Shown here: positions 5,125 to 21,957 of the stretch, one piece after another
Layout: the number at the start of each line of letters is the position of its first letter
Position numbering within the stretch: the stretch's first letter is position 1
Assembly: GCA_016875535.1 (NCBI GenBank)
Contig: VGPF01000020.1
Coordinates: forward strand, 1 to 38,228
DNA length: 38,228 nt
Reading direction: 5' to 3'
Origin: Chloroflexota bacterium
Lineage (GTDB): Bacteria; Chloroflexota; Dehalococcoidia; SHYB01
Notes under the pieces: generated by a model
The model's input: only the letters and a program-made list of their open reading frames with translations
Databases searched by the model: none
Told to the model about the DNA's origin: nothing
Program-made: the position numbers and the translations under genes

Positions 5125-6045
5125 CTAGTCCGCCTCATTCAGCTGCATATCGGGATAGGCGGCCCGCACCATGCGCTTGAAGCCGTCCTTCCAGTTGACC
5201 TTGGTCCTGCCCAGGACCTGGTGCATGAGGGTGGTATCGGGCCAGATGGGCCAATAGGCGGTGTCGTTATAGACGATCTTGGGCTTCTTCCCCACCAGCT
5301 TCCCGATGTATTCGCAGTAGTCCTCGGCGCTCACGGTCTCGCTGCCGGACCAGTTCACCGTCAGGGCCGGGACGTGGGCCGCCTCCATCGCCTTGATGCC
5401 CAGGTTAACGTAGTCGTCCTCAAAGATAGGGTTGTAGTTGTTCGGCCGCTCCTTGTAGAGGGCCACTTCGCGGCCTTCCACGATGGCCTTCATGCGGTCG
5501 TAGGGCGCGCCGCCGGTGGGGCCGTAAGTGGAGAAGATGCGGATGATGGTCGCCGGCATCTTGAACTCGTTGCAGGCGAAGTTGACCACCGCCTCTCCGG
5601 CGATCTTAGAGAGGCTGTAGTTGTGGTTGTGGAGGCCGGGCCTGTCCGACTCCTTTAAGGGGCGCTGGCCCTGGTAATCGTACTGGGAGCCGGTGGAGCA
5701 GTAGAGGAAGCCCTTGAGCCTGCCGCCTTTGTAACGCGACATGAGGCGCCCGGTGGCGTGGGCGTTCACTTCAAAGGCCCACTGCCAATCCAGGGCGGCC
5801 TCCTTGCTGATGGCGGCCCCGGCGTGAAAGATATAGGTGACGTCGCCGGGGAGGTCGTCGAAGGAGGCCTTGCCCAGGTCTTTTTGGACGGGGATGACGC
5901 CGTGGGCCGCCAGCTTCTCGCGGTCGGCGGGGTTGCGGAAGCGCGCCATGCCGTAGACGCGGTTGTACTTGGCGAGCTCCCGCGCGATGGGGAAGGCGAC
6001 GCGGCCGGCCGCCCCGGTGATGAGGATCGTTTCGCCTTTGATCAT
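5125..6045 (-). CDS. NAD-dependent epimerase/dehydratase (extended SDR)
   Basis: 306 residues. The N-terminal ILITGAAGRVAFPIA is a GxxGxxG-type nucleotide-binding motif, and the conserved YSLSKIAGE supplies the YxxxK pair of extended SDRs. TYGPTGG and the C-terminal substrate-binding half follow. The usual role is epimerisation, dehydration or reduction of a sugar nucleotide or a related ketone. ATG at 6045 is chosen: AGGAG lies eight bases upstream, and two codons earlier there is only a TTG. It is transcribed divergently from the HpaB-family gene. No sugar-nucleotide pathway genes are nearby, so the substrate remains open. Confidence 0.85.
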   Translation of the reverse strand: MIKGETILITGAAGRVAFPIARELAKYNRVYGMARFRNPADREKLAAHGVIPVQKDLGKASFDDLPGDVTYIFHAGAAISKEAALDWQWAFEVNAHATGRLMSRYKGGRLKGFLYCSTGSQYDYQGQRPLKESDRPGLHNHNYSLSKIAGEAVVNFACNEFKMPATIIRIFSTYGPTGGAPYDRMKAIVEGREVALYKERPNNYNPIFEDDYVNLGIKAMEAAHVPALTVNWSGSETVSAEDYCEYIGKLVGKKPKIVYNDTAYWPIWPDTTLMHQVLGRTKVNWKDGFKRMVRAAYPDMQLNEAD

Positions 6046-15145: not shown

Positions 15146-16372
15146 CTAGGAGGCCTCCGAGACGACCTGGACGTAGCGGCGGCTACCGACTTGGATGACT
15201 GCCCCTGGCTTCACGACGACCGACTGCTCGTGCGCCTCTAGTTTACGCCCATCGAGCTTCACGGAGCCTTGCTGGACAAGGCGCCGACCTTCCATGGCAC
15301 TGGGCGCAAGGCCCGCGCGATGGAGAAGCTTGGCGACGTTGACCTCAGCCGTTGCCCCGCCGAAGGGGAGGGCGATGGTGGGCATATCGGCCGGGCGCTC
15401 CTTGTGCTGGACCGTCCGCTCGAAGTGCTCAGCGCCCTGCTGCGCGCCGGCCTTGCCGTGGAACTGCTCCGTGATGAGGGCGGCCAGGCGCTTCTTCAGG
15501 GTCATGGGGTTTACGGCGCCCGATTCGACCTGCTTCACGATGCCGGCAAGCTCCGCATCGGGCACGTCCGTGAGCAGCTCGTAGTAGCTGCCGATGAGCT
15601 TATCCGGGATGGACATCACCTTGCCGTACATATCGTTGGGCGAATCGTTCACCGCGATGTAGTTCCCCAGGCTCTTGCTCATCTTCTGCGCGCCGTCCGT
15701 GCCGACGAGGATGGGCACGAGGAAGACCTGCTGGGGACGCTGGCCTGAGATTTCCTGCAGCTCGCGCCCGAGGAGATTGTTGAAGCGCTGGTCGGTGCCG
15801 CCGAACTCCACATCGGCCTGGACCATGACGGAGTCGTAGGCTTGGAGGAGCGGGTAGAGGAGCTCTGTGATGGCGATGGGCTGGTCGGCGGCGAAGCGCT
15901 TGGCGAAGTCGTCGCGCTTGAGCAGCTGCGCCACGGTGAACTTGCGCGTTAGCTGGATGACGTCTTTGAGGTCGAAGTGGTTGAACCACTCCGTCTGCCG
16001 CCGCACCTCGGTCTTGTTGGGGTCAACGATTTTGAAGAACTGGTGCAGATAGGTCTCGGCGTTCTGAGCGACTTCCTCCGCCGAGAGCATAGTGCGCATC
16101 TCCGAGCGGCCGCTGGGATCGCCGATCTGGGCCGTCCAATCGCCGACGATGAGGACGACGGTGTGGCCCAGCTCCTGCAATTGGCGCAGCTTGCGCAGCC
16201 CGACGACATGCCCCAAATGCAGGTCGGGGCGCGTGGGGTCGAAGCCCTGCTTGAGGCGCAGGGGCTTGCCGGCCTTGAGGAGGCGGGTGAAGACCTCCTT
16301 GGAAATGATATCGGCGACGCCCCGGTTGAGGATGGCGTGCCGTTCGGCGTTCGTAGGGATGCGGGCGCTCAT
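15146..16372 (-). CDS. tyrS: Tyrosyl-tRNA synthetase
   Basis: 408 residues. LKQGFDPTRPDLHLGHVVGL holds the class I HIGH-like motif, GGTDQRFNNLLGRELQ the tyrosine pocket, and QKMSKSLGNYI the KMSKS loop. A C-terminal S4 RNA-binding domain begins near VAKLLHRAGLAPSAMEGRRLVQQG. It belongs to the shorter TyrS type. The ATG at 16372 overlaps the ribF stop as ATGA. It is the last gene of the operon headed by the Phe/Tyr leader peptide, which would link synthetase levels to charged tRNA. Confidence 0.96.
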   Translation of the reverse strand: MSARIPTNAERHAILNRGVADIISKEVFTRLLKAGKPLRLKQGFDPTRPDLHLGHVVGLRKLRQLQELGHTVVLIVGDWTAQIGDPSGRSEMRTMLSAEEVAQNAETYLHQFFKIVDPNKTEVRRQTEWFNHFDLKDVIQLTRKFTVAQLLKRDDFAKRFAADQPIAITELLYPLLQAYDSVMVQADVEFGGTDQRFNNLLGRELQEISGQRPQQVFLVPILVGTDGAQKMSKSLGNYIAVNDSPNDMYGKVMSIPDKLIGSYYELLTDVPDAELAGIVKQVESGAVNPMTLKKRLAALITEQFHGKAGAQQGAEHFERTVQHKERPADMPTIALPFGGATAEVNVAKLLHRAGLAPSAMEGRRLVQQGSVKLDGRKLEAHEQSVVVKPGAVIQVGSRRYVQVVSEAS

Positions 16373-17322
16373 GACTTGAGCCTCGGGGCGGTCAGCGCGC
16401 GCGATTGTTCGACGTCTTTCCTCATCTGGGCCACCAGGGATTCGATGCTTGCGAATTTCATCTCTGGGCGGATGCGCGCCAGGAACTCGATAGTGATCTC
16501 CTTGCCGTAGATATCGCCGGAGAAGTCCATGATGAAGGTCTCGAAGGTGCGCGCATTATGCCCGAAGGTGGGGCGCACGCCAATATTGGTGGCCGCGCCG
16601 TAGCGCCTGCCGCCGACGACGGCGATGGTGCTATAGACGCCATCGCCCGGGATCGCCAGCTCCGGGTCGCTCTTGACGTTGGCGGTGGGAAAGCCGATGG
16701 TGCGGCCGCGCCTATCGCCAACGACGACGGTCCCGGTGACGACGTAGGTGCGGCCCAGCAGCTCCGCCGCCTGTTGCACGTCGACTTCTGCCAGGGCCTT
16801 GCGCACCGCCGTGCTGCTGACGATGGCTCCCTTGTGGAGGAAGGCGGAGGCCGTCTCCACGCGGAAGCCGAGCTCTTTCCCGATGCCCTGGAGCACCGGG
16901 ACGGTGCCTTCGCGGCCTTTGCCGAGGGCGAAGTCCGGCCCGACGATGAGGAGGCGCATGCGGAGCGATGTGACCAGCATCTCGGCGAACTGGCGCGCCG
17001 TGTACTGCGAGAGCTCTTTCGTGAAAGTGAGCGGCACCACGTGGTCAACGCCGGTGGCGCGCAGGAGCGCGAGGCGCTCCGGGAGCGGGCAGAGATAGGG
17101 GAACTGCACCTCCGGGTTGAGGACGGTGCGCGGGTGATTGCGAAAGGTCACTACCGCAGAGGCGAGGCCGCCGGACTCAGCGGCGCGCACCTGGCCGATG
17201 AGGTGCTTGTGGCCCAGGTGGACGCCATCGAAGACGCCGATGGTCAGCGCTGTATCCTTGGCAGGCCGGACGGCCGCTAGATCGGAGACGGGGTTGGGAG
17301 CCATGGCGGCTGCGAGCGTCAT
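16369..17322 (-). CDS. ribF: Bifunctional riboflavin kinase/FAD synthetase
   Basis: 317 residues. It phosphorylates riboflavin to FMN and adenylates FMN to FAD. The N-terminal nucleotidyltransferase has GVFDGVHLGHKHLIGQV. VTFRNHPRTVLNP and LLIVGPDFALGKGREG follow. The C-terminal kinase domain has GRTIGFPTANV and GVYSTIAVVGGRRYGAATNIGVRPTF-type sequence. ATG at 17322 is used; an ATG at 17304 is possible, and neither has a strong ribosome binding site. It lies 14 bases after aroF and overlaps tyrS by four bases. DAHP synthase does not use flavin, so its place in the aromatic operon looks like simple operon packing. Confidence 0.95.
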   Translation of the reverse strand: MTLAAAMAPNPVSDLAAVRPAKDTALTIGVFDGVHLGHKHLIGQVRAAESGGLASAVVTFRNHPRTVLNPEVQFPYLCPLPERLALLRATGVDHVVPLTFTKELSQYTARQFAEMLVTSLRMRLLIVGPDFALGKGREGTVPVLQGIGKELGFRVETASAFLHKGAIVSSTAVRKALAEVDVQQAAELLGRTYVVTGTVVVGDRRGRTIGFPTANVKSDPELAIPGDGVYSTIAVVGGRRYGAATNIGVRPTFGHNARTFETFIMDFSGDIYGKEITIEFLARIRPEMKFASIESLVAQMRKDVEQSRALTAPRLKS

Positions 17323-17336
17323 GCGCCCGGGTGCGG

Positions 17337-18380
17337 CTAGGCCTTGGCCGCGGTGAGCGGCTTGCGCGAAAGGCCCTGCACCTTCGAGATGGCGCGCACC
17401 TGCTCCATCATGTAGGCGAAGTTCTCCGGCGTCAGCGACTGCGCGCCGTCGGATTTCGCCTGGTCCGGGTTGGGGTGGACTTCGATGATGAGGCCGTGGG
17501 CGCCTGCGGCCACGGAAGCGGCGGCCATGGGCGGCACGAGGTACCACTTGCCGGTGCCGTGGCTGGGATCGGAGACGACGGGCAGGTGGCTGAGCTTGCG
17601 CACCACGGGGATGGCGCTGAGATCGAGGGTGTTGCGGGTGTAGGTCTCGAAGGTGCGGATGCCGCGCTCGCAGAGGATGACGTTGTGGTTGCCCTGGGCA
17701 AGAACGTACTCGGCGGCCAGGAGCCACTCTTCGATGGTGGCGGAGAGGCCGCGCTTCAGCAGGACGGGCTTGTGCTGCTTGCCCACTTCGTCCAGTAGGT
17801 TGAAGTTCTGCATGTTGCGCGCGCCCACCTGGAGGACATCCGAATACTTGTGGACGACCTCCACATCGCGGGTGTCCAGGACCTCCGTGATGACGGGCAG
17901 GCCGGTCTCCTCGCGGGCCTTGGCCAGGAGCTTGAGGCCGTCCAGCTTGAGGCCGCGGAAGCTGTAGGGGGAGGTGCGGGGCTTGAAGGCGCCGCCGCGG
18001 AGAACCTTGGCGCCCGCGGCTTTGACGGCCTTGGCGACTTCGACGACCTGCTTCTCCGTTTCGACGGAGCAGGGGCCGGCCATCACCATCACAGGATGCT
18101 CGCCGCCGATGTAGGCGTCGCCGATCTTCACCACGGTATCGTCCGGGTGGAATTCGCGGCTGGCCAGCTTGTAGGGCCGCGAGACGCGCAGCACCTGCGT
18201 CACGCCCGGCAGGCGCTCCAGGGAGCTGCCTAGATCGGGGCTGACTGCGCCGCCGATGATGCCGACGATGGTGCGCTCGGCGCCGGTGACGACGCTGGTG
18301 CGCAGCCCGGCCTCCTTCACGCGCTTGGAGACGCCGTCTATCTCTTCCTGCGTGGCGCCCTGCTTCATGACAACGATCAT
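17337..18380 (-). CDS. aroF: 3-deoxy-7-phosphoheptulonate (DAHP) synthase
   Basis: 347 residues, the type I-beta (Thermotoga-like) enzyme that joins phosphoenolpyruvate and erythrose 4-phosphate at the entry to the shikimate pathway. Residues 1-70 ([17 protein letters not shown] to the [12 protein letters not shown] join) form a ferredoxin-like regulatory domain. The barrel has VMAGPCSVE with the metal-binding Cys, [38 protein letters not shown] with a metal His, and IEVHPNP with the Glu. The related enzyme is feedback-inhibited by Tyr/Phe through the N-terminal domain. Start is ATG at 18380. Here control would exist both in the protein and in the upstream attenuator. Confidence 0.96.
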
Positions 18381-18409: not shown

Positions 18410-18823
18410 TCAGGTCTGGTTTTTACGCCGTGTCGTCCGGCTCTTGCTCACTGCTCCTGCCTTGGAGTTCATCTCCGGCCGGAGCTTGATTGCTTCTTTC
18501 AGGTAGACGTGCTTAATAGCCTTCTGGCTCTTGGCGGTGTTGGCCACCAGCATGATGCGCACCACCTTCGCCAGCGCGCCGGGAACCTCCATCTCGTGCC
18601 CGCAGAGGAGGGCCACATCCGTCCAGCCCATCTGGCGCGCGGCCACCGCCGGGAACTCGGCGTTCAGGTCGCGCGTGGTGGTCAGGAAGGCGCAGGCGAT
18701 AGCGTCCTTCTTCAGCCCGTTCGCCTCCATCATCGCCTCAAGCAGCTCGCGCGTATTGCGAAGGATGGACTCCTTCGTATTCTCCTCGCTCGTCGTCGCG
18801 CCTCGGATGCCTCGCGCCGTCAT
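18410..18823 (-). CDS. aroH: Chorismate mutase, AroH type
   Basis: 137 residues. It converts chorismate to prephenate, the branch to Phe and Tyr. [16 protein letters not shown] at the start, [19 protein letters not shown] in the middle and [19 protein letters not shown] at the end are the landmarks of the trimeric Bacillus-type enzyme, including its active-site arginines. A basic tail ([10 protein letters not shown]) is longer than usual. ATG at 18823 overlaps the trpA stop as ATGA; aroF starts 29 bases after its stop. The open frame extends upstream to 19114 inside trpA, but the family N-terminus fixes the start. Confidence 0.94.
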
Positions 18824-19638
18824 CGCCGCGCCTCCGCCGCGCCCTTCGTCGCTCCTTGGCTGAGGGAGGCGATGAAGGCCTTGGCGGCCTGGGCCGCGCC
18901 TGCGTGGCCGCCGCTTTCGACGGCCTGCATGAGAGCGCTGCCGACGATGACGGCCTCCGCATGCTGGCCAACGGCGCGCACGTGATCGCCGGTGGAGACG
19001 CCGAAGCCCACCGCCAGGGGCAGGCGCGAATGCTTGCGCACCCGCGCCAGGAACTCGGGCAGGCCGGAGGCCAGGTCCGCCCGCGCGCCGGTGACGCCGG
19101 TGAGGCTGACGCAATAGACGAAGCCGCTGCTGGCCTTGGCCACCTGGATGATGCGATGCTCCGTGCTGGTAGGGGCGATGAGGAAGATGACGTCCAGCCC
19201 TTTGGGGCGCGTCGCGGCAAGCAGAGGTCCCGCCTCATCAGGCGGCAGGTCCGGCACGATAACGCCATCGGCCCCTGCCGCAGCCGCGCGGGAGGCGAAG
19301 TCCTCCAAGCCCATCGCGAAGATGGGGTTGTAATAACCCATAAGGATGAGGGGGGTGTTCGGCAGGCGCTTGCGCAGCTGGGCGCAGACGTCAAGGCAGG
19401 CGCCGAGGGTGACGCCGTTCTGCAAAGCAGCCTGGTTGGTCCGCTGGATCGTGGCGCCGTCCGCCAGGGGGTCGCTGAAGGGGATGCCCAGCTCCAGCAT
19501 GTCAGCCCCGGCCTGCACGATGGCCTCGGCGATGGGCACCGTGGAATCGAGCTTGGGAAAGCCCACGGTGAGATAGGCGCTGATGCCCGTCTTGCCCCGG
19601 CGCTTCAACTCCGCGAATGTCTGTTCTATGCGGCTCAT
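18820..19638 (-). CDS. trpA: Tryptophan synthase alpha subunit
   Basis: 272 residues. It cleaves indole-3-glycerol phosphate to indole, which passes to TrpB. LTVGFPKLDSTVPIAEAIVQAGADMLELGIPFSDPLADG contains both catalytic residues, the Glu of LELG and the Asp of PFSDPLADG. GVIVPDLPPDEA and SLTGVTGAR follow, with a glycine-rich phosphate site near GFGVSTGDHV. Start is ATG at 19638, 10 bases after the CPBP gene. No trpB or other trp gene lies in the window, so trpA is detached from its partners and tied to the Phe/Tyr branch genes. Confidence 0.95.
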   Translation of the reverse strand: MSRIEQTFAELKRRGKTGISAYLTVGFPKLDSTVPIAEAIVQAGADMLELGIPFSDPLADGATIQRTNQAALQNGVTLGACLDVCAQLRKRLPNTPLILMGYYNPIFAMGLEDFASRAAAAGADGVIVPDLPPDEAGPLLAATRPKGLDVIFLIAPTSTEHRIIQVAKASSGFVYCVSLTGVTGARADLASGLPEFLARVRKHSRLPLAVGFGVSTGDHVRAVGQHAEAVIVGSALMQAVESGGHAGAAQAAKAFIASLSQGATKGAAEARR

Positions 19639-19648
19639 TGCTGTGGGA

Positions 19649-20368
19649 TCACCCGAATACGGCGATGGCGAAGATGGTGGCGTTATAGCCCATGTGGACC
19701 AGGATGTTGATCCAGAGGGAGCCGGTCCTTTTATAGACGTAGGCCATGAGGAGGCCGATGAGGAAGATAGGGACGAAGAGGGCCGGTTCCAAGTGGGCGA
19801 GGGTGAAGAGCATGGCACTGAAGAAGGCGGCGCTCCAGAACTTCATCTCCCGGGAGAGGCCGGCGAAGACGAAGCCGCGGAAGAAGGTCTCTTCCACAAC
19901 GGGGGCGACGGCGATGGCGAGGAGGCCGCCCGCGAAGAAATAGGCGTGGGCCGGATCGTCCAGGAATTCGGGCTTGAGGCGATCGTCGATCCCGGTGGCT
20001 TGAGCGATCAGCCCGTAGATCATGGCGATGACGAGACAGCAGGCGATGCCCATGGGCACATAGCCCCAGGTGGCTCTGCGGAGCTTCTTGCGGAAGCCGA
20101 GATCGCGCCAGCGGCCGCGCCGATCGGCCACGGTGAAGCGCCACGTGGTGAAGATGAGGACGATCTGAATCACTCCGGAAAGAATGAGGCCTAGGGGCGC
20201 TTTGCTGAGGTCCACGTTCTTGGCGACGGAGGCCGCGAGGACAACAAGAGCGAGCATGCCGACGATGATGACGGAGACGGCCTTCGCGACCTCGCGGGTG
20301 CCCCACGGCAGGCGCGGCGGCGCTTTGGCGGGAGGAGCTTTGCGGGTTGGTATGCTTCCGATTGCCAT
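19649..20368 (-). CDS. CPBP-family intramembrane metalloprotease
   Basis: 239 residues with several hydrophobic segments (about 30-50, 60-75, 105-125, 145-160, 185-220). The CPBP/Abi core is complete: VEETFFRGFVFAGL supplies the EExxxR motif, FTLAHLEPALF the His, and VHMGYNATIF the terminal His/Asn motif. In eukaryotes the family removes prenyl-protein tails; bacterial members are tied to bacteriocin immunity or remain unassigned. ATG at 20368 has GGAAG seven bases upstream. It is the first gene after the aromatic attenuator and sits 10 bases before trpA, so it is read with the aromatic genes for no obvious biochemical reason. Confidence 0.88.
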   Translation of the reverse strand: MAIGSIPTRKAPPAKAPPRLPWGTREVAKAVSVIIVGMLALVVLAASVAKNVDLSKAPLGLILSGVIQIVLIFTTWRFTVADRRGRWRDLGFRKKLRRATWGYVPMGIACCLVIAMIYGLIAQATGIDDRLKPEFLDDPAHAYFFAGGLLAIAVAPVVEETFFRGFVFAGLSREMKFWSAAFFSAMLFTLAHLEPALFVPIFLIGLLMAYVYKRTGSLWINILVHMGYNATIFAIAVFG

Positions 20369-20408
20369 ATGTCTTCCAATGGCTGGAACGCGGCCCCTAC
20401 AAAGTAAG

Positions 20409-20433
20409 AAGGCCCCCGGTAACCGGAGGCCTT
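20409..20433 (-). terminator. Attenuator terminator hairpin (3:4)
   Basis: On the minus strand AAGGCCTCCGG (20433-20423), loop TTA, and CCGGGGGCCTT (20419-20409), with one G-T pair, followed by CTTACTTTG, a moderately U-rich tail. It lies 41 bases upstream of the CPBP start and 35 bases after the leader peptide stop. Confidence 0.7.
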
Positions 20434-20467
20434 GTTCATTGCAAGGTGCGCGCTCAGTTACCGTAGC

Positions 20468-20518
20468 CTAGGCTAGGCGCCCGTAAAACCCTCCAAAGTA
20501 GTAGGCGAACTGAGACAC
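20468..20518 (-). CDS. Aromatic leader peptide (16 codons)
   Basis: Translates as MSQFAYYFGGFYGRLA followed by TAG. Six of the 16 residues are Phe or Tyr (Phe 4, 8 and 11; Tyr 6, 7 and 12) and there is no Trp. The start is GTG at 20518, with GGGAG (20530-20526) seven bases upstream, an ideal spacing. The promoter is about 20 bases further up. The peptide itself need not do anything: its role is to let the ribosome sense charged tRNA-Phe and tRNA-Tyr. It precedes a terminator and the operon CPBP-trpA-aroH-aroF-ribF-tyrS. The codons used are TTC/TTT and TAC. Confidence 0.75.
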   Translation of the reverse strand: MSQFAYYFGGFYGRLA

Positions 20519-20544
20519 GGCGGCTCTCCCAAAGGGATGTGGCT

Positions 20545-20573
20545 ACTATAACACAGGCGCCACAGAGGCGCAA
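20545..20573 (-). promoter_or_regulatory. Promoter of the aromatic operon
   Basis: TTGCGC (20573-20568), a 17-base spacer and TATAGT (20550-20545) preceded by TGT, an extended -10, on the minus strand. Predicted start is near 20538, leaving a short leader before the peptide's ribosome binding site. Confidence 0.65.
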
Positions 20574-20628: not shown

Positions 20629-21741
20629 TTAGGGGGCTACGGCCGCTCTCGATATCCTCTCTTGGGCCTTCCCGAGCCATTCCGATTGCTGGAAGGCCTG
20701 GTTTATCTCAGTGAGCGGGAAGGTGTGGGAGACGATCTTGTGGAAGGGGTACTTGGACAGGGTGCGGGATGCGAAATCGAGGACCTTGGGCATGATGCTC
20801 GCCTCGTAGAGGACGATGCCGTGGAGCGTCTTGTTGCCGAAGACCATCTGCGAGGGGTCGTATTGCATGGTCATGCCCCGGTTGATGTTGCCGATCTCAA
20901 CATAATGACCTCCTGGGCGCAGCATGTCCCATCCCTCTTGGACCACGCTCGGGAAGCCTACCAGCTCGGCCACCAGTTCGGCTCCTAGGCCGTCGGTGAG
21001 GCGTTTTATGGTTGCCACGCGCTCCTCCGCGCTCTTCACCTGGCCGGCGTTGATGACATAATCGGCGCCGAACTCCCTGGCGAGGGCGAGGCGTCCTTCC
21101 AGCGCGTCCAGCACGATGATGGGCGCGGCCCCCATCTCCTTGGCGATGGCGGTGGCGTAGAGGCCCAGTCCGCCTGCGCCCTGGATCGCGACCGATTGCC
21201 CGAACTTCAGACCTGCCGTCACCCAGCCTTGCATCACTTGGGAGAAGGCGCAGTTCACGGAGGCGACGATATTGTCCGGGATGCGGTCGTCTTCCACCTT
21301 GAAGAGAGCGCGGCCCGGCGGCACGTAGTAGTACTCGCCGTAGGCCCCGGTGAAGTAGGGCCACTCGCCGAAGGTGCGCTTGGCGTGGCGGTTGGGACAG
21401 GCGCGGGTGACGCCGCTGAGGCAGATGGGGCAGGCGAGACACGGCTGGAAATACTGGTAGACGACCCGGTCGCCTTCCTTGAGCGCGCGGCCGAGGGAGT
21501 CCGTGGTCTTGCCCTGGCCCAGGGCATAAATGCGGCCGGACATCTCGTGTCCAACGGTAGACTCCTTGTTATCAAAGCCGGGGAGATCGCCGCGCCAGAT
21601 GTGGAGGTCGGAGCCGCAGATGTTGGCCATGGAGATCTTGACCAGCACGGAGCCGGGCTCAAGGGAAGGCAAAGGGAATTCGCGGATGGTGAAGGGCCTC
21701 TTGGTCCCATGAAAGACGGCGAGCCTGCCAGTGGATGCCAT
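20629..21741 (-). CDS. Zinc-dependent alcohol dehydrogenase (MDR family)
   Basis: 370 residues. NICGSDLHIW carries the catalytic zinc Cys, GHEMSGRI the following His-Glu, and CLACPICLSGVTRAC the four cysteines of the structural zinc site. The Rossmann motif AIQGAGGLGLYATAIAKEMGA follows. The family oxidises alcohols, polyols or sorbitol-like substrates with NAD(P). The ATG at 21741 is chosen because GGAG lies seven bases upstream; the frame is open to 21849, but that part is repeat-derived. It is a single-gene unit with its own promoter. The substrate is not known. Confidence 0.92.
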   Translation of the reverse strand: MASTGRLAVFHGTKRPFTIREFPLPSLEPGSVLVKISMANICGSDLHIWRGDLPGFDNKESTVGHEMSGRIYALGQGKTTDSLGRALKEGDRVVYQYFQPCLACPICLSGVTRACPNRHAKRTFGEWPYFTGAYGEYYYVPPGRALFKVEDDRIPDNIVASVNCAFSQVMQGWVTAGLKFGQSVAIQGAGGLGLYATAIAKEMGAAPIIVLDALEGRLALAREFGADYVINAGQVKSAEERVATIKRLTDGLGAELVAELVGFPSVVQEGWDMLRPGGHYVEIGNINRGMTMQYDPSQMVFGNKTLHGIVLYEASIMPKVLDFASRTLSKYPFHKIVSHTFPLTEINQAFQQSEWLGKAQERISRAAVAP

Positions 21742-21768
21742 GGCGCTGCTCCAGCGTGGAATGGGCGC

Positions 21769-21777
21769 AGGATAGCA
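21769..21777 (-). promoter_or_regulatory. Extended -10 of the alcohol dehydrogenase gene
   Basis: TGCTATCCT on the minus strand (21777-21769), about 28 bases before the ATG at 21741. No clear -35. Confidence 0.4.
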
Positions 21778-21814
21778 CGGAGGCGCAGGGGCGGAGGCGT
21801 AGTGCGGTGCGGCA

Positions 21815-21957
21815 TCTCTGTCACACTGAGCGTTCCTGGTTGTCCTCATCCCGATTCCCCATCGGGACCGCCAGGGAGCGAAGGGTCTACAAACTCGTCG
21901 TTCCTTCGGCCGCTCCGATGCTTCGCACCGGAGGCGGCCTCAGGATGACAAAAGCGA
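21815..21957. repeat. Mosaic intergenic repeat, copy 3
   Basis: Contains, on the plus strand, CACTGAGCGTTCCTGG, the hairpin CCCGAT-TCCCC-ATCGGG (21850-21866), CCAGGGAGCGAAGGGTCTAC, GTTCCTTCGGCCGCTC, GATGCTTCGCACCGGAGG and CCTCAGGATGACA. It is in the opposite orientation to copy 2 and carries a different optional hairpin. It lies between the alcohol dehydrogenase start and the argS stop. Confidence 0.75.

Follow-up and report, generated by a model that had tools for sequence, protein, structure and literature searches.

The window, by which we mean the whole stretch of 38,228 nucleotides analysed here, carries on its minus strand the gene series CPBP-trpA-aroH-aroF-ribF-tyrS, preceded by a short leader region. 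The trpA and aroH genes overlap by 4 bases, as do ribF and tyrS, and the other genes of this putative operon are closely spaced. The original prediction had named trpA, chorismate mutase, DAHP synthase and tyrosyl-tRNA synthetase in that order, which is right; the CPBP gene stands first and ribF lies between aroF and tyrS. The window comes from a 2.5-Mb genome (G000), which was compared with three other members of its family: G001, of the same genus (L002/L112), G003, of another genus (L114), and G002. The genes at the locus are:

20629-21849, minus strand: alcohol-dehydrogenase-like gene upstream of the leader, on the same strand and ending about 200 nt 5' of the hairpin
19649-20368, minus strand: CPBP-family intramembrane protease-like, first gene of the putative operon (NCBIfam, below curated cut-offs)
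18820-19638, minus strand: trpA, tryptophan synthase alpha (TIGR00262, over cut-off)
18410-18823, minus strand: aroH-type chorismate mutase (TIGR01796, over cut-off)
17337-18380, minus strand: aroF, DAHP synthase, fourth gene of the cluster (TIGR01361 and PRK08673, over cut-off)
16369-17322, minus strand: ribF, riboflavin kinase/FAD synthetase (TIGR00083, over cut-off)
15146-16372, minus strand: tyrS, tyrosyl-tRNA synthetase (TIGR00234, over cut-off)

Between the alcohol-dehydrogenase-like gene and CPBP, at 20573-20409 of the minus strand, lie a -10 box, a 16-codon open reading frame with a GTG start, and three competing pairings; every part of the predicted element was found at this place. 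Its features are:

20568-20573, minus strand: -35-like box TTGCGC, with 3 of 6 consensus bases
20545-20550, minus strand: -10 box TATAGT, in the context TGTG(T/C)TATAGTA
20524-20530, minus strand: Shine-Dalgarno-like GGGAGAG, about 6-7 nt 5' of the GTG start
20468-20518, minus strand: leader peptide ORF MSQFAYYFGGFYGRLA, 16 codons with GTG start and TAG stop, with homologous ORFs in G001 and G003
20508-20514, minus strand: strand 1, CTCAGTT, the protector, pairing over 7 bp with AACTGAG at 20453-20459
20483-20488, minus strand: predicted main control codons, Phe11-Tyr12 (TTT TAC), from the ribosome stall scan
20450-20463, minus strand: strand 2, CGGTAACTGAGCGC, 5' half of the antiterminator, from 2:3 duplex energy against shuffles
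20417-20430, minus strand: strand 3, GCCTCCGGTTACCG, common to antiterminator and terminator
20409-20433, minus strand: predicted intrinsic terminator hairpin (3:4, 11 bp), AAGGCCTCCGG-TTA-CCGGGGGCCTT, from folding and terminator scoring
20401-20408, minus strand: interrupted U-tract CTTACTTT, from sequence and terminator scan

The ribosome binding site and the 16-codon ORF with six Phe/Tyr codons are both as first described. The codons read GTG TCT CAG TTC GCC TAC TAC TTT GGA GGG TTT TAC GGG CGC CTA GCC TAG, with Phe4, Tyr6, Tyr7, Phe8, Phe11 and Tyr12 as the aromatic residues and no Trp codon. The promoter stands in part: TATAGT and its context are common to the window, G001 and G003, and TTGCGC lies 17 nt from it; a strict promoter scan of the leader region reported no promoter, because this -35 box matches the consensus at only three of six bases. 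By eye, TTG-starting hexamers are also present about 17-18 nt 5' of TATAGT in G001 and G003. Strand 2 lies 3' of the leader stop codon, which is about 100 nt 5' of the CPBP start. The U-tract of the window is broken up (CUUACUUU), the sequence after the hairpin being CTTACTTTG. The hairpin ends 40 nt from the CPBP start, so that a transcript coming from upstream must pass it.

Competing pairings and ribosome position

The original prediction gave the three pairings as 7, 9 and 11 base pairs. The first (1:2) and last (3:4) have these lengths, but the antiterminator (2:3) comprises 13 pairs interrupted by two single-base bulges, CGGTAACTGAG.GC opposite GC CTC.GGTTACCG. In the window this duplex has an energy of -18.5 kcal/mol, the mean for shuffled sequences being -9.9, and 2 of 1000 shuffles were as good (p = 0.002); with p <0.001 in G001 and p = 0.011 in G003, the antiterminator is better than shuffles in all three genomes. 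Strand 2 was set in this test against the terminator 5' arm plus loop, replacing an earlier test on the 5' arm without the loop that gave no signal for the window. The 1:2 pairing, CTCAGTT:AACTGAG, is present with its 7 bp in the window and in G001, where strand 1 is unchanged (shuffle p = 0.14, not significant, and 0.046 respectively), and is not kept in G003; this protector pairing is the least conserved part of the leader.

Of the shuffles of the 180 nt 5' of the terminator, 0.05% contained an ORF with at least six Phe/Tyr/Trp residues in 14 codons. Requiring both such an aromatic ORF and a terminator score no lower than 26 leaves the element as the sole match on both strands of the window, and a looser terminator threshold adds one weaker match. 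Folding energy over the leader as a whole is ordinary (z = -0.53), as expected for a switch, and is uninformative as a test. A ranking of amino-acid triples placed Phe-Trp-Tyr only 5th to 45th; it was uncorrected for codon number, and shuffles of the same sequences were preferred for that reason.

The influence of a ribosome was modelled by removing, codon by codon, the RNA as far as 13 nt past the first base of the codon, to represent ribosome cover, and computing pair probabilities for naked RNA at equilibrium and 37 °C. In the window the terminator probability is 0.96 at early codons, falls to 0.86 at Phe8, 0.63 at Phe11, 0.37 at Tyr12 and 0.48 at Gly13, and is back at 0.95-0.96 between codon 14 and the stop. 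The G001 values are 0.62 at Phe11, 0.01 at Tyr12 and at Gly13, and 0.85-0.96 at codon 14 and beyond. For G003 they are about 0.34-0.37 at codons 10-15, which include Tyr11 and Phe13, and at least 0.70 from codon 16 on. The best predicted escape in both the window and G001 is thus with the ribosome at Phe11-Tyr12-Gly13, whose codons are identical in the two; from these minima, the predicted read-through codons are the identical Phe-Tyr pair and the Gly that follows.

These in silico folds indicate that the position of the ribosome would decide which helix forms. Stalling at Phe4 or at Tyr6/Tyr7 gives termination at equilibrium in the window, so that these codons would matter only kinetically, or less. 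Because the terminator still wins at several of the Phe/Tyr codons at equilibrium, antitermination there would rely on kinetics.

Occurrence among relatives and across the phylum

The leader of G001 is 84% identical to that of the window in an alignment of 135 bases, which begins at the leader start and runs slightly beyond the terminator; no alignment was found further upstream of it. The G001 peptide is MTQFSYSFGGFYGHRA; codons 9-13 (GGA GGG TTT TAC GGG), strand 2 and all 25 of 25 bases of the terminator are identical to those of the window. G003 has TATAGT, a leader MQRHVSAAWGYLFTEHG with the aromatics W-Y-F, and the same CPBP-trpA-aroH-aroF genes downstream; its antiterminator is re-matched (GGTAACTGG:CCGGTTGCC, -19.1 kcal/mol) and its terminator ends in an unbroken seven-T tract (TTTTTTT). 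CPBP is the first gene in both genomes. The G001 contig is also that of L002 (CAMAVV010000081.1), whose title, Thermoflexus hugenholtzii, may be a mislabel given its placement in the genus of the window, the class of which looks to be Dehalococcoidia.

Three of the four family genomes therefore keep the -10 context, aromatic ORF, antiterminator and terminator before the same genes; the close sample is thin, consisting of three leader-bearing sequences and one family member that lacks the leader. In this last genome, G002, the upstream region was recovered from an overlapping contig (C26/C35; L243, L244), and it shows no aromatic leader ORF and no T-tract, although a hairpin is found at the same place. 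Retention of this hairpin before CPBP-trpA-aroH-aroF gives the appearance of a switch that has been lost.

Wider in the class, no leader was detectable at 37 of the 39 trpA loci sampled; the two that show one are those of G001 and G003, both in the family of the window, and none was seen where trpA lies directly 5' of aroH-aroF outside that family. The expectation that relatives would keep the aromatic codons is thus borne out in G001 and G003 and fails in G002 and in these 37 clusters, and that of kept stems holds for strand 2 and terminator in G001 and the re-matched antiterminator of G003 but not for the 1:2 pairing of G003. The gene order CPBP-trpA-aroH-aroF is itself widespread among class-level relatives (L112-L150), with CPBP constantly tied to trpA.

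The trp genes of G000 are dispersed, with trpA in the window (contig C20), trpB on C21 and trpE-like genes on two further contigs, C44 and C17. By eye, the gene 5' of trpE on C44 looks to be the end of trpS. No other trp genes were recognised beside trpB. A Trp leader was not seen before the trpE-like genes of this genome, nor a Phe leader found before its pheS. The trpA gene is therefore the only trp gene found under the putative Phe/Tyr switch.

A scan upstream of aroF covered 60 loci from roughly 44 Chloroflexota families, together with other fetched loci. An aromatic leader ORF followed by a terminator precedes aroH-aroF or aroF in 14 Chloroflexota families besides that of the window, examples of such ORFs, each with its terminator, being MQPRSAYFFWFWYFASSPRDWLLRVG, MQRFATFFFYFFYFTSRHRAWLLRVA, MASARYYYWFYFFGPAERG... 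and MLIYQFGFYFYSTA. Among aroH/aroF-proximal terminators, 18 of 23 follow an ORF with at least six aromatic residues in 14 codons, compared with a mean of 0.17 and a maximum of 2 for shuffled sequences. Additional genomes of the same families supplied about 25 more such leaders, and others are found in L076 (a record named Anaerolineales, METSARFYFFWFYFYG...) and L029 (a record named Thermoflexales). Some of the carriers are apparently cultured organisms.

Outside the phylum, a Phe/Tyr/Trp leader peptide and a terminator stand directly before a DAHP synthase gene in an Acidobacteria record (L079, about 5850-5955, leader MRFSRFYFYGGWADH) and in a Phycisphaerae record (L041, about 5800-5935, leader MQFVLAQFGFWFTAYFYA...). 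A second type of leader was noted by eye directly before aroF in L204, L207, L208, L228 and L238, with a strong 1:2 hairpin. This hairpin is GGCATGACGG/CCGTCATGCC in L228 and GGCACGACGG/CCGTCGTGCC in L208, a change from U-A to C-G, and the varying pair appears by eye as U-G in L207.

The leaders of Chloroflexia type, from families f81 and f114, were aligned as a set of 23 sequences (L187 4102-4178, L188, L196-L199, L250-L261 and L264 among them). Here the 3' end of the leader ORF contains TGGTYGCTTCGC, which pairs with GCGTGRAGCAAC within the terminator 5' arm. The antiterminator is paired in 92.2% of alignment cells, compared with 32-58% in slid controls, and the terminator in 98.3%, with 21 compensatory cells in three pairs and none of 500 shuffles as high. 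The two helices are mutually exclusive, share strand 3, and are both kept in the 23 sequences. In nine of these an A to G change in strand 3 retains both a U-G pair with strand 2 and a G-C pair in the terminator, so that strand 3 is able to serve both helices. A swap (permutation) test gives 2:3 covariation, taken by itself, weak support (p = 0.07), and for this reason we rely on joint conservation for this helix. The aroH-aroF leaders of the alignment have a conserved peptide end, W-(L/S)-L-R, which coincides with the antiterminator strand and is probably conserved for the RNA that lies there.

Mechanism and alternative explanations

From the sequence, its conservation and the modelled folds, we conclude that the leader is very probably a classical ribosome-mediated transcription attenuator of the trp/phe type, sensing charged tRNA-Phe and tRNA-Tyr, a reading that is well supported overall. 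Transcription would start near 20538, and a ribosome would translate the 16-codon leader behind RNA polymerase. With an ample supply of charged Phe and Tyr tRNAs, the ribosome would reach the stop codon and cover the 5' part of strand 2, allowing the 3:4 hairpin to form and transcription to end near 20400. When they are scarce, it would pause, most effectively at Phe11-Tyr12, leaving strand 2 exposed to capture the terminator 5' arm, with read-through into CPBP-trpA-aroH-aroF-ribF-tyrS. In the absence of a ribosome, or with one at the first codons, strand 1 would pair with strand 2 and termination would be the default.

It seems improbable that the hairpin is no more than the ordinary terminator of the alcohol-dehydrogenase-like gene, the Phe/Tyr ORF and the pairings being coincidental. 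That gene does end on the same strand some 200 nt before the hairpin, and the U-tract is modest, but a promoter-like -10 box kept in three genomes lies between the two, the aromatic ORF is kept in the same three genomes, and strands 2 and 3 match far beyond shuffles in each of them. Like leaders before aroH/aroF throughout the phylum also argue against coincidence, as does the 40-nt interval between hairpin and CPBP, in which no recognisable promoter was seen. There is similarly little likelihood that the Phe/Tyr leader acts on translation or coupling, by reinitiation or a hairpin-masked start, and not on transcription termination. The leader ORF is close to the first gene, and a published proposal of reinitiation at such ORFs extends to many phyla (PMC4833913); yet the leader stop is about 100 nt from the CPBP start, and the hairpin, with its U-rich 3' stretch, leaves that start uncovered. 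Long U-tracts in relatives, both in G003 and in many of the aroH leaders, point to termination.

Control by a metabolite riboswitch or T-box of known family can be given almost no weight, even though T-boxes control aromatic genes in Firmicutes and are present in Chloroflexi (PMC3766115). The leader falls short of the length of a T-box, what is conserved in it is a translatable aromatic ORF, and no Rfam family other than tRNA and tmRNA reached threshold in the window and 20 related loci. A refinement that overlaps our main reading is a functioning attenuator that in effect responds to a single amino acid, either Tyr by way of Tyr12 or only Phe, with the remaining codons passive. This is a distinct possibility, although we think it less likely than not: predicted read-through is strongest at Tyr12 in both the window and G001, and a Phe-Tyr-Phe leader in Corynebacterium glutamicum, discussed below, reacts to Phe only (PMC11802643). 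On the other side, Phe8 and Phe11 also reduce the terminator probability, and Phe and Tyr are mixed throughout in the leaders of other families.

Relation to known attenuators and significance

The closest functional likeness to the attenuator proposed here is with aroR of C. glutamicum, a leader with Phe-Tyr-Phe before the aroF operon of DAHP synthase, in which stalling raises read-through and regulation follows limitation of Phe, not of Tyr (PMC11802643, citing Neshat et al. 2014). As a Phe/Tyr leader before a DAHP synthase operon, the leader of the window falls by this likeness into the same functional class. One leader for both Phe and Tyr, which the original prediction considered unusual, is therefore not new in kind, although that precedent responds to Phe only. 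The two differ in phylum and in aromatic content, a short Phe-Tyr-Phe run with only Phe effective in aroR and six Phe/Tyr codons in the window; moreover, the genes that follow in the window extend beyond DAHP synthase to CPBP, trpA, aroH, ribF and tyrS, unlike the aroR operon.

At the level of arrangement, the E. coli pheA (pheL) and pheST systems are also similar, with a Phe-rich leader, an antiterminator opposed to a terminator, and targets that comprise aromatic genes as well as an operon for an aminoacyl-tRNA synthetase (PMC11802643), but they are Phe-directed and control other genes. The trp attenuators of Proteobacteria and Actinobacteria (Rfam Trp_leader) share the three-state 1:2 / 2:3 / 3:4 logic; they have Trp codons and precede the trp operon, whereas the window leader has neither a Trp codon nor an Rfam match. 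Rfam covariance models, including Trp_leader and T-box, gave no match at gathering score to the leader in the window and 20 related loci. No tRNA was found in the window, and NCBIfam models did not match the longer leader peptides of relatives.

The other Chloroflexota leaders resemble that of the window in their aromatic ORF, their terminator, the antiterminator (in f81/f114) and their place before chorismate mutase and DAHP synthase genes. In them, the 3' end of the leader ORF holds strand 2, strand 3 is GCGTGGAGCAAC-like, and aroH or aroF follows directly, whereas in the window strand 2 is found 3' of the stop codon and the leader is followed by CPBP-trpA. Because strand-2 position and gene order differ in this way, common descent of the two is unsupported.

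Leader-peptide attenuation was long thought to be limited to Proteobacteria and Actinobacteria; a 2010 survey reported leader-peptide systems from these two groups only and added a his case in Firmicutes (PMC2965389). A 2013 survey that included five Chloroflexi genomes proposed that the Rfam attenuators are of gamma-proteobacterial origin, with few transfers (PMC3766115). A search of the open literature on leader peptides in Chloroflexi/Chloroflexota found no description, in keeping with the original prediction, which knew of none for such organisms; Lopatovskaya et al. 2010 (PubMed 20198868) might list some. The distribution of aromatic leader attenuators across Chloroflexota thus appears to be undescribed.

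We lean, on balance, towards the view that control of chorismate mutase and DAHP synthase genes by ribosome-mediated Phe/Tyr attenuation is old and widespread in Chloroflexota and has been re-made repeatedly with different strands and gene orders, also in some Acidobacteriota and Planctomycetota, and that in the lineage of the window trpA, ribF and tyrS were placed under one such switch. If this is true, leader-peptide attenuation would not be chiefly an invention of Proteobacteria and Actinobacteria. The leaders would add families absent from Rfam, and would imply that transcription and translation are coupled in these bacteria. With Phe/Tyr leaders in front of DAHP synthase genes in at least 15 Chloroflexota families, this control would be common in the phylum, and the entry point to aromatic synthesis would have a specific regulator that can be tested.
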